From Nitriliruptoraceae bacterium (GTDB lineage Bacteria; Actinomycetota; Nitriliruptoria; Nitriliruptorales; Nitriliruptoraceae), in assembly GCA_018401275.1 (NCBI GenBank), contig JAGYKW010000001.1, positions 248,001-312,000 of the forward strand: a stretch of DNA of 64,000 nt. The letters are read 5' to 3'. The position numbers were made by a program, and so were the translations under genes. Of this stretch, positions 3,153-15,655 are shown one piece after another. Within the stretch, counting starts at the first letter, position 1, and each line of letters opens with the position of its first letter. Below the pieces are notes generated by a model that was not told where the DNA came from, ran no database searches, and saw only the letters and a list, made by a program, of their open reading frames with translations.

Positions 3153-5066
3153 ATGGCTCTCATCGTGCTCCCCGGCCCCCGGCGCTCGCGCGTGCGACGC
3201 CGTCGCCATCATGCTCGCGTTCCGCTCCTGCTCGTGATCGTGCTGCTCGCTGCTGCCTGCTTCCCGGCCGCCGGTCCGCCGGCTCCGCGCGCATCCGACG
3301 TGGGAGCCGACGGAGATGCAGACGTATCGGCGGATGCGGCCACGAGCAGCGACGTCCCCGCATCCGCATCCGCATGCCGCGACGCGGCCAGCAACGCCCT
3401 CGGGGGGCGCGCCATCGACCACGTCCGTCCCGTCGGCGCGTCCGCGGACCCGGCGCCCGTCCCGGTCGTGCAGCTCGATGCGCAAGGGCTGCTGCGCCTG
3501 GTCGAACTGCACGCGCTCGCGCCGGACGGCACGCCCTGCACCGAACGGGTGGTGCTCACCGGGGTCGAGGATGTGCTCGGTCGCGGGCTCGCGGGTGCTG
3601 CGGCGGTGGCGCAGGGGCTCGATCTGATCGTCGCGACCGCTGACCAGGGGGCGGACGGTGTCGGACCCGACGTGACCACGCTCGCGGACGCGGTCCGTGC
3701 GCTGCTCGCCGACCCGCTGGCGGACGGGCCTGCTGAGCTGGTGCGCGGACGCACCCCGGTGCTCGTCCTCGCGCATGACCTGCTGGCCCAGGTCGACGTC
3801 GTCGCGTCCGCCGGGGACGGCGTCGTTCCGGTCGTCATCGACGCGGACACGGCGACCGATGGCGTCGTCGCGACGCTCGACCTCCTTCGCGCCGCAGGTG
3901 GCGCAGCGCACGAGGTCCGCTGGACGGCGTCGACACTGGTGGACGCGCGAGCGCTCGACGCCGTGCTCGTGGGCCTCGCGGCCGAGGGGATCGACGCGAC
4001 GCGCTGGACGCCCGACGCAGCAGCACGGCCGGTCGCTGAACTGTGGCTCGGTGATGTGCGGCAGATGGGGACGGCGCTGATGGCGGCGGCGACGGCGGTG
4101 CGGCGCGGCGCTGCGTTCGTCGCGGTCGACGGGACCGACCTGCGTGCCGGTGTCGAGCGCACGGAACGTGTCCGTGCCGCCGTGGGGCAGCTCGGCCAAG
4201 ACGGACGCATCGTGCTGGTCGGCGACGTCGACGAGGCGACCATGTGGCAGCTCGACACGGTCAGCGTCGGGACGCCACTGCCGGGCGGGGGGTTCCTCCC
4301 GCTGGAGGAGCGCCGGATCGTGGCGCTGTACGGGACTCCGGGCACGGCGTCGCTCGGGCTGCTCGGGGAGCAGGACACGGACGCGACGATGGTGCGGGCC
4401 CGGGAGGTCGCGCAGCGCTACGCGGATGCGGCCGACGGTCGCATCGCCGTCCCGGGGCTTGACGTGATCACCACGATCGCATCGTCCGCTGCGGAACCGA
4501 CGGGCGACTTCAGTCGGCGCGTCCCGATCGAACGCATCAGACCGCTCGTGGATGTCGCGCGCTCGGAGGGCGCGGCGGTCCTGCTCGACCTGCAGCCGGG
4601 CCGGAGCAGCTTCCTCGTTCAGGCGAAGGAGTATGAGGAGCTGCTGCGCGAGCCGCACGTCCATCTTGCGCTCGATCCGGAGTGGCGGATCGGGCCGCGT
4701 GAGCGGCACCTGGTGCGCATCGGTTCGGTCGATGCGGACGAGGTCCAGGCGGTCGCCGACTGGCTCGCAGAGCTGGTGCGTCGTGAGCGGCTCCCGCAGA
4801 AGGTGCTCATGCTGCATCAGTTCACGCTGGCCATGCTGCCTGAGCGCGACACCATCGTCATCCCCGACGAGCTGATCGGTGTCGTGCACATCGACGGGCA
4901 GGGGCCGCTGCCCACGAAGAACAACACCTACGCTGTCCTGACCGCGGGGGCCGAGGAGCACTGGGTGTGGGGCTGGAAGAACTTCACGCGCATCGACACG
5001 CCCGTCGCTACCCCCGAGCAGACGCTCGAGAGGCTTCCGGTCCCGCTCATCGTGACCTACCAGTGA
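3153..5066 (+). CDS. Large secreted lipoprotein of unknown function
   Basis: A 637-aa protein. The N-terminus is Arg-rich (RRSRVRRRRHH), then a hydrophobic core ends in LLAAAC, a plausible lipobox with Cys at about residue 37. A Ser/Ala/Asp-rich linker of some 50 residues follows. The rest contains alternating beta-alpha units (for example VIAVPGLDVITTIA, GAAVLLDLQPGRSS, VHLALDPEWRIGP, KVLMLHQF) that read like a TIM-barrel in the C-terminal half, about residues 350-637. I do not recognise the family and assign no reaction. It is 33 bases upstream of a secreted M15 peptidase, so a cell-wall role for the pair is possible. Confidence 0.7.
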   Translation: MALIVLPGPRRSRVRRRRHHARVPLLLVIVLLAAACFPAAGPPAPRASDVGADGDADVSADAATSSDVPASASACRDAASNALGGRAIDHVRPVGASADPAPVPVVQLDAQGLLRLVELHALAPDGTPCTERVVLTGVEDVLGRGLAGAAAVAQGLDLIVATADQGADGVGPDVTTLADAVRALLADPLADGPAELVRGRTPVLVLAHDLLAQVDVVASAGDGVVPVVIDADTATDGVVATLDLLRAAGGAAHEVRWTASTLVDARALDAVLVGLAAEGIDATRWTPDAAARPVAELWLGDVRQMGTALMAAATAVRRGAAFVAVDGTDLRAGVERTERVRAAVGQLGQDGRIVLVGDVDEATMWQLDTVSVGTPLPGGGFLPLEERRIVALYGTPGTASLGLLGEQDTDATMVRAREVAQRYADAADGRIAVPGLDVITTIASSAAEPTGDFSRRVPIERIRPLVDVARSEGAAVLLDLQPGRSSFLVQAKEYEELLREPHVHLALDPEWRIGPRERHLVRIGSVDADEVQAVADWLAELVRRERLPQKVLMLHQFTLAMLPERDTIVIPDELIGVVHIDGQGPLPTKNNTYAVLTAGAEEHWVWGWKNFTRIDTPVATPEQTLERLPVPLIVTYQ

Positions 5067-5099
5067 GCGTCCTCCAGTGAGGCCAGTGCGGCCGGTCAG

Positions 5100-6434
5100 G
5101 TGCGACGCGTGAGAGCGACGGTCTCGCTGGTCGCGCTGCTGTCGTCCGCGTTGGTGCTGTCGACGAGCTTCACCGGCACCGACACCGGTACCGGCACCGA
5201 CTCGATGGGCGGAGTCGTCGCGACGAGTACCGGAGCCAGCGCTCCGGCCGCGCGCGCACTGGAGCTGGACAGCGCGCAGGTCCGCCGGCTCCTGCGTGGA
5301 CGACCGGGCCCGTCCCCGGAGATCGACGCGCCCGGCGCACCGTCCGAGGTCCTGAGCGTGGTGAGCTCGGAGGACTCGCTGACGGACGCGCTCGTCGCCA
5401 CGTTCGTCGGCCTCGACGGGGTGCTCGCGACGACGCAGGTGCGCTCCGCCACCCTCGGACTCTTCGGCAGCGTCGCGTCGGACGGCGTGCCGCGTGACGT
5501 GCCGCCGGCAGGGATGCGCATCCCGGTCAACGTCATCGCGATCGCCCCCGACACCTACCTCGACGTGCTGCTCGTGGACGTCGATGAGCACGATGCGGCC
5601 CTCGTGACGGGGCTCGTCCCGGGCTCGGTGCTGCTCTCCGCCTCCGCTGCGCGACTGCGTGGCCTCGACGCGGGCGCGACGATGGATGTCGGGCGCGCGT
5701 CGGCGCTCGTCGTGGCCGGCGTCGTCGACGACGGTGTGGCGCGGGGGAGCGAGCTGCTCGTCCATCGTGATGACGTCGACCGGATCGGCCTCGGGCCGCG
5801 CGAGTCGCTGCTCGTGCGCACGGCGGTCAGTGCCTCCGGCCCGACGGTCGAGCGCCTGTTCGACGCTGCGCTCGAAGAATCGCCCGACAGCGACGTGCGG
5901 GTCTGGCACGGGACCGACCGGGTCCCTCTCGTGCTCTCGACGATCGCGGTGAAGGAGCGCTTCGGTGAGTTCGCCTTCCGGCTCGTACTGAACCAGCGTG
6001 AGGTCGACATCGAGCGTCGGTTCGTCGACGAGTGGATCACCATCGAACGCATGCCGGTGCTCGGCAACGTGCGCTGCCACCGGCTGATCATGGATGACCT
6101 GCGTGCGGCGATCGAGGACACGGTCGCTGCAGGTCTGTCGCAGTGGATCGAACGGGACCGTTTCGGCGGGTGCTTCCATCCGCGTCGCATCGCCTACGGG
6201 CGCGAGAACCTCTCGCGTCACGCGTGGGGCATCGCGATCGACCTCAACGTCGACTTCTCGCAGCCGGGCGCTGGCCCCGTCCCGCCCGAGGAGTTCATCG
6301 AGATCTGGGGCCGTCACGGCTTCCGCTGGGGCGGCGACTTCACGACACCGGACAACCACCACTTCGAGTGGGTCGGGTCGGCGGCCGCGGTCCGCCCGGA
6401 CCGTGGCGCGGTCGAGGTCAGGCCGGCGGGCTGA
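5100..6434 (+). CDS. Secreted M15 (VanY/DacB-like) D,D-carboxypeptidase family protein
   Basis: A 444-aa protein with a signal peptide (VSLVALLSSALVLSTSF). The last 120 residues carry the M15C zinc-site pattern: SRHAWGIAIDLNVD (H...D, near residues 373-381) and later DNHHFEWVG, whose His is the third ligand. Such enzymes trim D-Ala from peptidoglycan stems or cleave peptide crosslinks outside the membrane. The roughly 240 residues before it are unassigned. Start GTG 5100; GTG 5109 also leaves the signal peptide intact. The 3' end overlaps the convergent TetR gene by 17 bases. Confidence 0.8.
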   Translation: MRRVRATVSLVALLSSALVLSTSFTGTDTGTGTDSMGGVVATSTGASAPAARALELDSAQVRRLLRGRPGPSPEIDAPGAPSEVLSVVSSEDSLTDALVATFVGLDGVLATTQVRSATLGLFGSVASDGVPRDVPPAGMRIPVNVIAIAPDTYLDVLLVDVDEHDAALVTGLVPGSVLLSASAARLRGLDAGATMDVGRASALVVAGVVDDGVARGSELLVHRDDVDRIGLGPRESLLVRTAVSASGPTVERLFDAALEESPDSDVRVWHGTDRVPLVLSTIAVKERFGEFAFRLVLNQREVDIERRFVDEWITIERMPVLGNVRCHRLIMDDLRAAIEDTVAAGLSQWIERDRFGGCFHPRRIAYGRENLSRHAWGIAIDLNVDFSQPGAGPVPPEEFIEIWGRHGFRWGGDFTTPDNHHFEWVGSAAAVRPDRGAVEVRPAG

Positions 6435-12354: not shown

Positions 12355-13650
<1,296 letters not shown>

Positions 13651-13708: not shown

Positions 13709-13795
13709 TCCGCACGGCACGACGCGATCCCCGCGCTCTTGCGTGGATGGCGAATCGGCGGATAACTGGTCCGCCCTGGCACGGGAGAGTTCTGG

Positions 13796-14536
13796 ATGCA
13801 AAGCATCGGTGCACTTGGTCTCAGCGCGAATCAGGTCATGGTCGTTGGGGGGTTCTTCTCGCTCACCTTCGCTGTGTTCCTCGGGAGCGCGATCTTCTTC
13901 TTCGTCAGCCGGATGGACGTATCGCCGGCCTACCGCATGGCGGTCACCATCTCTGGCGTGATCGTCACGATCGCTGGCTACCACTACTTCCGCATCATGC
14001 AGTCCTTCGACAAGGCCGTCACCGAGGGTGCGGGCTTCAACGAGGCCTACCGCTACGTCGACTGGGTCGTGACCGTCCCGCTCCTGCTCACCGAGCTGGT
14101 GCTGGTCCTCTCGATCGCCCCTGCGCGCCGTCGCGCCCTGCTCAACAAGCTCGTGCCGTACTCGTTCCTGATGATCGTGCTCGGCTACCCGGGTGAGACC
14201 TCGAGCGACTCGACCACGCAGTGGATCTTCTGGGCCGCGTCGATGGTGTTCTTCGTCCTGATCCTCGCGACGCTCTTCGGTGAGCTCACGAAGCAGATCG
14301 CCTCGGAGAACCCGGCCGTCCAGGGCACGCTCAAGACGCTGCGCACGGTCCTGCTCGTGACGTGGAGCTTCTACCCGATCGCCTACCTCGCGCCGGTGCT
14401 GCTCGCCGACGCAGGCCTCGCGTTCGTGATCGTGAACGTCGGCTACGCCATCGCGGACATCACCGCGAAGGCTGGCTACGGCCTCATGATCCACCACGTC
14501 GCCAAGATCAAGACGGAGCACAGCATCGCCGCCTGA
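13796..14536 (+). CDS. Light-driven proton-pumping rhodopsin (xanthorhodopsin/actinorhodopsin-like)
   Basis: A 246-aa, seven-helix retinal protein. Helix C reads RYVDWVVTVPLLLTE: Asp89 is the proton acceptor, Thr93 the middle residue and Glu100 the donor, the DTE set of outward proton pumps. His63 in GYHYFRIM matches the His partner of the acceptor. Lys225 in IADITAKAGYGL is the Schiff-base lysine, with Asp221 as second counterion. Leu97 occupies the green/blue tuning position and predicts green absorption. Aligned by eye, Trp146 sits where xanthorhodopsin has the Gly that makes room for a carotenoid antenna, so antenna binding is unlikely. GYPGE after helix D fits the xanthorhodopsin/actinorhodopsin group. 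No carotenoid or retinal synthesis gene is in the window. Confidence 0.95.
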   Translation: MQSIGALGLSANQVMVVGGFFSLTFAVFLGSAIFFFVSRMDVSPAYRMAVTISGVIVTIAGYHYFRIMQSFDKAVTEGAGFNEAYRYVDWVVTVPLLLTELVLVLSIAPARRRALLNKLVPYSFLMIVLGYPGETSSDSTTQWIFWAASMVFFVLILATLFGELTKQIASENPAVQGTLKTLRTVLLVTWSFYPIAYLAPVLLADAGLAFVIVNVGYAIADITAKAGYGLMIHHVAKIKTEHSIAA

Positions 14537-14552
14537 TCGACGACCGCACTTC

Positions 14553-14582
14553 ACGGAGGGGGCGCTGCGGCGCCCCCTCCGT
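14553..14582 (+). terminator. Strong hairpin after the rhodopsin gene
   Basis: A perfect 12-bp stem, ACGGAGGGGGCG with CGCCCCCTCCGT, and a 6-base loop begin 16 bases after the rhodopsin stop. There is no clean T-run, as usual in such GC-rich genomes. It separates the rhodopsin transcript from the next gene and makes the rhodopsin monocistronic. Confidence 0.75.
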
Positions 14583-14617: not shown

Positions 14618-15655
14618 ATGAGGGCCGGACGAGGTGCGGCGGTGGATCGCGACACGCTCAGGGTTCGGATCGACGCCTGGACCCAGGCAGGCATCATCTC
14701 GCCCGAACAGGCCGCCCGAATCCTCGCGCACGAGGCCCCTGCCTCGTCGCCCGTGAGCGAGTCGGCACCGCGGCCGGATCGGCGTGCGCGACTCGCCGAG
14801 GTCGTCGGGTACGTCGGGGCGGCCTTCGCGCTGGGCGCCATCGGTCTGCTGCTGGCAGAGACCTGGGCGGACCTGCTGCCGTGGGCGCGTGTGACGCTCG
14901 CAGCCCTGCTCACCGTCGTCGCGCTCGCCTCGGGTGGTCTCGTCGTGCGGCGGTCCGGCCCCTCACTGCACCGGCTCGCCGGGGTGCTCTGGACCTCCGG
15001 TATCGCGGGCGTGGCCTGGCTCAGTGGGGTCCTCGCCACCGACGTCCTCGCCCTTCCCGAGCGGTCCATCGCCCTCGCGGTCGGCCTGCCGGCCGCCGTC
15101 GTGGGTGGCGTGCTGCTCGCACTCGGTCGGCACGTGCTCGTCCAGGTCGCGACCCTCGTCGCGCTCGGTGTCAGCGCCGTCGCGACGGTCATGATGATCG
15201 CCCCGCTCCCTCCGGGTCCCAACGCGTACGGCGTCCTCGTGCTCGGGGGCGGCGTGACCTGGGCGCTCGCCGGAGCCGGCGGGTGGCTCGGCCCGAGGAT
15301 GAGCGCGGAGCTGTCCGGCGGAGCGGTCGCGCTCATCGGGACACAGATCCTTGCGGCGTCGGACCGTCCGTTGCTCGCGCTCGCCGTCGGCGTGCTGACC
15401 GCCGGCCTGCTCGTCGCTGCGTCGCTGCCCGGGCAGCGCGTGCACCTGCTGTTCCTCGGTGCGCTCGGGCTGTTCGTCACCGTCCCGCGGCTCGTCTTCG
15501 CACTGTTCGCCGACACGCTCGGCGCGCCGGCGACGTTGCTCACCACCGGCGTGCTCCTGATCCTGCTGGCGACCGGACTGGGCAGGGTCCGACGTTCCCA
15601 GGGCGCGCACGAGGTCCCGCAGGTCCGCCCGGGCCAGGAGGTCGGACATGGCTGA
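14618..15655 (+). CDS. DUF2157-like polytopic membrane protein
   Basis: A 345-aa protein. A short cytoplasmic helix-rich head, RIDAWTQAGIISPEQAARILAHE, matches the start of DUF2157 proteins. It is followed by ten or so hydrophobic segments from residue 60 to the end. The function of this family is unknown. GAGG lies 7 bases before ATG 14618; GTG 14642 would remove only eight residues. The 3' end overlaps the next gene by 8 bases, so the two are translationally coupled and may act together. Confidence 0.65.
   Translation: MRAGRGAAVDRDTLRVRIDAWTQAGIISPEQAARILAHEAPASSPVSESAPRPDRRARLAEVVGYVGAAFALGAIGLLLAETWADLLPWARVTLAALLTVVALASGGLVVRRSGPSLHRLAGVLWTSGIAGVAWLSGVLATDVLALPERSIALAVGLPAAVVGGVLLALGRHVLVQVATLVALGVSAVATVMMIAPLPPGPNAYGVLVLGGGVTWALAGAGGWLGPRMSAELSGGAVALIGTQILAASDRPLLALAVGVLTAGLLVAASLPGQRVHLLFLGALGLFVTVPRLVFALFADTLGAPATLLTTGVLLILLATGLGRVRRSQGAHEVPQVRPGQEVGHG

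Follow-up and report, generated by a model that had tools for sequence, protein, structure and literature searches.

The locus described here, a rhodopsin gene lying beside clpX in an aquatic Nitriliruptoraceae bacterium with a small genome, raises the question of what such a protein does in a cell where the recognised genes for making its chromophore are missing. The best characterized relatives of this protein are proton pumps, some of which also bind a carotenoid antenna, so that both the pump itself and the origin of its pigments have to be considered. Judged from its sequence, the protein is probably a light-driven outward proton pump of the xanthorhodopsin-like (XR-like) group, devoid of a carotenoid antenna and run on scavenged retinal. 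The features on which this reading is based are collected in Table 1, with positions given in the window, i.e. the whole stretch of 64,000 nucleotides that was analysed.

Table 1. Position of the rhodopsin gene, its key codons and its surroundings in the window
Feature	Position	Strand	Basis or remark
clpX, upstream neighbour (context only)	12355..13650	+	NF003745/TIGR00382; order kept in L002-L004
Ribosome-binding-like site CGGGAGA/GGGAGAG, just before the ATG	13783..13789	+	conserved in L002, L003
Rhodopsin gene, 246 aa, ATG start, DTE proton-pump motif	13796..14536	+	PF01036, E 2.8e-39
Helix C motif codons: D89 (14060-14062), T93 (14072-14074), L97 (14084-14086), E100 (14093-14095)	14060..14095	+	alignment with BR, GPR, GR, XR, Kin4B8
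Trp146 codon, antenna-site (fenestration) position	14231..14233	+	aligned to Gly of XR/GR/Kin4B8 and to BR Trp138
K225 codon, retinal Schiff-base lysine	14468..14470	+	alignment
3' hairpin after the stop, 13 bp, no U tract	14553..14582	+	fold z -3.28; similar hairpins in L002-L004
DUF2157 membrane protein, downstream neighbour (context only)	14618..15655	+	PF09925, E 5.7e-11; order kept in L002-L004

Bac_rhodopsin (PF01036) is the sole Pfam match of the gene product, which has the seven helices and the helix G Schiff-base lysine of type-1 (microbial) rhodopsins, and no other rhodopsin was found in the source genome (G000; 1.73 Mb). Its top match in the PDB is GR (6nwd, E 5e-52), followed by psXR, xanthorhodopsin, RlActR (9hfk) and Kin4B8. 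An AlphaFold model, for which 24 natural sequences were used as input, has a pLDDT of 89 and a TM score of 0.91 to GR, with which the protein also shares the D-T-E motif and 44% identity (structure alignment). The Salinibacter ruber xanthorhodopsin (3ddl) and Kin4B8 (7ytb, 8i2z) are similarly close, with D-T-E, a residue like His63, a TM score of about 0.9 and 43% identity. The residues named in the first-pass annotation (D89, T93, L97, E100 and K225) all stand where it had placed them in the alignment, and D221 and H63 are present as well. Helix C therefore reads D-T-E and not the N-D-Q of sodium pumps. Moreover, the grouping with xanthorhodopsin and actinorhodopsin, first made by eye, is borne out by a phylogeny that puts the protein among the XR/GR/ActR DTE proton pumps rather than in a non-pumping clade. 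Eight Nitriliruptorales orthologues were recovered (the query plus seven at 72-93% identity), and the DTE motif and the lysine are kept in every one of them.

A role as light sensor, as enzyme-like regulator or as pump of another ion would fit the fact that a cell without chromophore synthesis is a less obvious place for a constant role in energy supply. It is nevertheless highly improbable, given that D-T-E together with H63 and the lysine is the proton-pump signature of XR, GR and ActR, that sodium pumps of the same family carry N-D-Q instead, and that the neighbouring genes encode ClpX and a DUF2157 protein, with no transducer gene adjacent.

Other rhodopsins occur in related genomes. Further Nitriliruptorales family members have a rhodopsin with the NDQ motif, predicted to be a sodium pump, in which Gly occupies the antenna site, and one congener, G002, has such a protein as its second rhodopsin (L106, G002:C22:9643-10347; 1444-2277, + strand), with an aquaporin-family gene and a methyltransferase gene as neighbours; Blh, PF00494 and RPE65 are absent from G002 despite this second gene. 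In the same class, genome G047 contains a second rhodopsin with Ser-Thr-Gln replacing D-T-E (YISWLITIPLLLVQ; L103, G047:C1:165689-166384), and no Pfam family is matched by the long open frame that precedes it.

As regards the antenna, a carotenoid site is recognised first of all by a Gly at the fenestration position, and in Kin4B8 a bulkier residue at this point blocks zeaxanthin binding (PMC12308411). The alignment of helix E has no gaps near residue 146, so that Trp146 corresponds to XR Gly156, GR Gly178 and Kin4B8 Gly153, and HMMER alignments to GR, psXR, XR, RlActR and Kin4B8 also place it in the antenna-Gly column. In the MAFFT alignment the same column holds Trp138 of bacteriorhodopsin and a Phe of green proteorhodopsin, these two sequences serving as yardsticks. 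The Trp reported earlier in place of the antenna Gly thus stays at the fenestration site when the proteins are properly aligned. All six of the closest solved XR-like chains (GR, psXR, XR, thermophilic rhodopsin, Kin4B8 and RlActR) have Gly there, and all eight Nitriliruptorales orthologues have Trp. Whereas xanthorhodopsin and Kin4B8 bind carotenoid and Gly178 of GR allows the binding of a keto-carotenoid, the Nitriliruptoraceae protein has the Trp of the GR G178W mutant, which does not bind carotenoid and surpasses the wild type in stability and pumping (PMC9151804); it may be regarded as a natural counterpart of that mutant. Trp accounts for 24% of the substitutions of the antenna Gly counted over 150 GR homologues (PMC9151804), and its occurrence here is therefore not new in kind.

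The bulky residue is also found outside the Nitriliruptorales. DTE rhodopsins from planctomycetes (Trp) and chlamydiae (Phe) join the Nitriliruptorales type with a support of 98/92, beside XR/Kin4B8 and GR, while the Nanopelagicales-type actinorhodopsins, with Gly, form a separate branch. The tree was rebuilt without BR and GPR because of long-branch joins in the first one, and this second tree omits L077, a partial Trp-type sequence from a Melainabacteria MAG. The Trp/Phe grouping persists in the best tree after the helix E columns are dropped, with an SH-aLRT of only 28, and the phylogeny suggests that the group is likely to be monophyletic.

With respect to the chromophore, the genome search for blh and crt genes proposed in the first-pass annotation was carried out on the source genome and three congeners (G000-G003). 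Neither Blh (PF15461 and a family-specific profile built from ten relatives), phytoene/squalene synthase (PF00494), an RPE65-type oxygenase nor a CrtI above the cut-off was detected in these four genomes; prenyl synthases, taken as positive control, were found in G000, G002 and G003. The absence of retinal genes, earlier noted for the vicinity of the rhodopsin, therefore extends to the whole assembly for the families searched, and the source genome, with no blh/brp or RPE65-type cleavage enzyme, resembles in this respect the retinal-auxotrophic rhodopsin bacteria. The annotation had left open whether retinal is made by unlinked genes or taken up. The balance now leans to uptake, and the proposal of unlinked genes finds no cleavage enzyme or phytoene synthase to support it in the genome and its three congeners. 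A CrtI overlooked in G000 was also considered and rejected, since no TIGR02734 hit there exceeds 50 bits in the genome search or 79 as a whole protein, against a cut-off of 238; the two matches inspected resemble general FAD oxidoreductases.

A draft assembly may hide genes, and retinal-synthesis genes could sit in the unassembled few percent, the completeness being 96% for G000 (39 contigs) and only 78% for G001. Furthermore, crt and blh genes often form one cluster, as in G011, a carrier of a Trp-type rhodopsin in which the same searches located Blh, CrtI and CrtB next to one another on a single contig, so that a single gap could conceal them all. Such a gap is very unlikely to be the explanation, since the families were found in none of the four genomes of the genus, all drafts but three of them 96-97% complete, and since Blh and PF00494 are missing from the Trp-type carriers G007, G015 and G022 too, which would call for a shared assembly cause.

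The same pump might also receive retinal made inside the cell, by a pathway that escapes recognition or by an enzyme that has diverged strongly. Retinal is present in Aurantimicrobium minutum, for which no blh or diox1 gene is known (PMC7734400), for which reason gene absence is no proof of auxotrophy and the term is used here in a predictive sense; in addition, G000 has FAD oxidoreductases weakly similar to CrtI/CrtO/HpnE. This reading is unlikely, because the lack of PF00494 in G000-G003 means that the C40 backbone itself is missing, and because these genomes contain no match to the family-specific Blh profile, which gives 1e-122 in G011, itself one of the profile's members. Uptake of retinal from the environment is thus the reading retained in what follows.

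The lack of the first committed step of carotenoid synthesis is unusual among the DTE-rhodopsin carriers sampled, since PF00494 is kept in 39 of the 41 other genomes, including Nanopelagicales of 1-1.8 Mb, a pooled count in which part of the planctomycete matches may serve squalene/hopanoid synthesis. Blh is kept in 19 of these 41. Within the family, Blh is present in one of eight Trp-type carriers versus six of ten NDQ-only carriers (Fisher p 0.066, the rows being non-independent). That a Trp at the antenna site follows carotenoid loss does not hold as a general rule, as planctomycetes and one chlamydia of the Trp/Phe type keep Blh and PF00494. Their MAG rhodopsins (L009, L010, L013, L018, L061; L022, L041) share D-T-E, the bulky antenna-site residue and the tree group with the protein studied here, but only 44-51% identity, and most of their genomes, unlike the present one, retain both families. 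Two seemingly linked traits are in this way separated, the closed antenna site being found well beyond genomes without carotenoid synthesis. Actinorhodopsins (RlActR, 9hfk; Nanopelagicales loci) are likewise actinobacterial DTE pumps, several of whose hosts lack blh, so that the predicted retinal auxotrophy is shared with Rhodoluna and Luna-1 (PMC12422013); they differ in their antenna-site Gly and tree position, and phytoene synthase is retained in the majority of their genomes.

The rhodopsin gene is under purifying selection, with dN/dS values (Nei-Gojobori) of about 0.10, 0.15 and 0.27 against the congener loci L002, L003 and L004. These low ratios indicate that the opsin is kept under constraint, though no chromophore route was found. 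The near-complete genomes of the genus measure 1.7 Mb, versus 2.3-5.6 Mb for genomes of the same family, pointing to genome streamlining, and, judging by their record names, two congeners may come from San Francisco Bay and Delaware Bay.

The surroundings of the gene are also stable within the genus. The setting between clpX and a membrane protein gene, claimed earlier, was recovered by profile matches, the latter gene encoding a DUF2157 protein. The order tig-clpP-clpX-rhodopsin-DUF2157-orf-valS is kept in L002 and L004, and in L003 up to the limit of its short contig; none of the window's neighbour genes lies near the rhodopsin in the distant Nitriliruptorales loci L005-L008. The possibility that the rhodopsin contig is a contaminant or was wrongly binned was considered and is ruled out by the length of contig C1 (713,978 bp) and by the clpX-rhodopsin-DUF2157 order in the congeners. 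In G003 (L004), a CPA2-family cation:proton antiporter gene (3710-5866, + strand) is inserted between clpX and the rhodopsin, and its product is a possible user of a light-driven proton-motive force. The promoter of its own once ascribed to the rhodopsin gene found no support, as the 145-bp gap upstream contains no match to a sigma-70-type promoter and is poorly conserved except for the ribosome-binding-like GGGAGAG. The hairpin annotated as a 12-bp terminator does exist, those pairs being extended by one A-U pair, and is conserved in three congeners. The terminator function is less secure, given the missing U tract, and the structure does not appear in the output of the terminator scan; it is possibly a terminator or a 3'-end stabiliser.

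The mechanism proposed follows the photocycle established for DTE pumps, with D89, E100 and K225 in their usual roles. Retinal on K225 would be the single chromophore and would isomerise in green light, the absorption predicted from L97. The Schiff-base proton would pass to D89, acting as counter-ion and acceptor, and then out of the cell, and the Schiff base would be re-protonated from the cytoplasmic side by E100 as donor. A carotenoid antenna would not take part because Trp146 would occupy the opening that receives the antenna ring. As the cell would make neither carotenoid nor retinal, the opsin would obtain its retinal by scavenging from the surroundings, and once loaded it may add to the proton-motive force in the light. 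For retinal, no importer is known that could serve as a query. An opsin that scavenges its retinal has a precedent in a proposal for proteorhodopsin, in which decanoate acts as a placeholder while the pocket is empty (PMC11322631), and Rhodoluna lacicola is described as a retinal auxotroph, a trait also inferred for the majority of Luna-1 genomes (PMC7734400, PMC12422013).

Neither retinal auxotrophy nor a Trp in the antenna position is new to the literature. No rhodopsin study in Nitriliruptoria was found in the open-licence literature, which is weak evidence of absence. The present analysis extends predicted retinal auxotrophy to this class and, beyond the last cleavage step, to genomes without the first committed step of carotenoid synthesis. 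A wider proposal, rather doubtful at present, is that the whole small-genome Nitriliruptorales genus runs a proton-pump rhodopsin, and one member an NDQ sodium-pump rhodopsin too, without any carotenogenesis; if true, there would have to be a dedicated and as yet unknown retinal uptake system, or a route to retinal without phytoene synthase. The genus offers a clean test case for the loading of natural opsins with environmental retinal, and the most useful point is that a constrained rhodopsin is kept across it without any recognised carotenoid or retinal genes.
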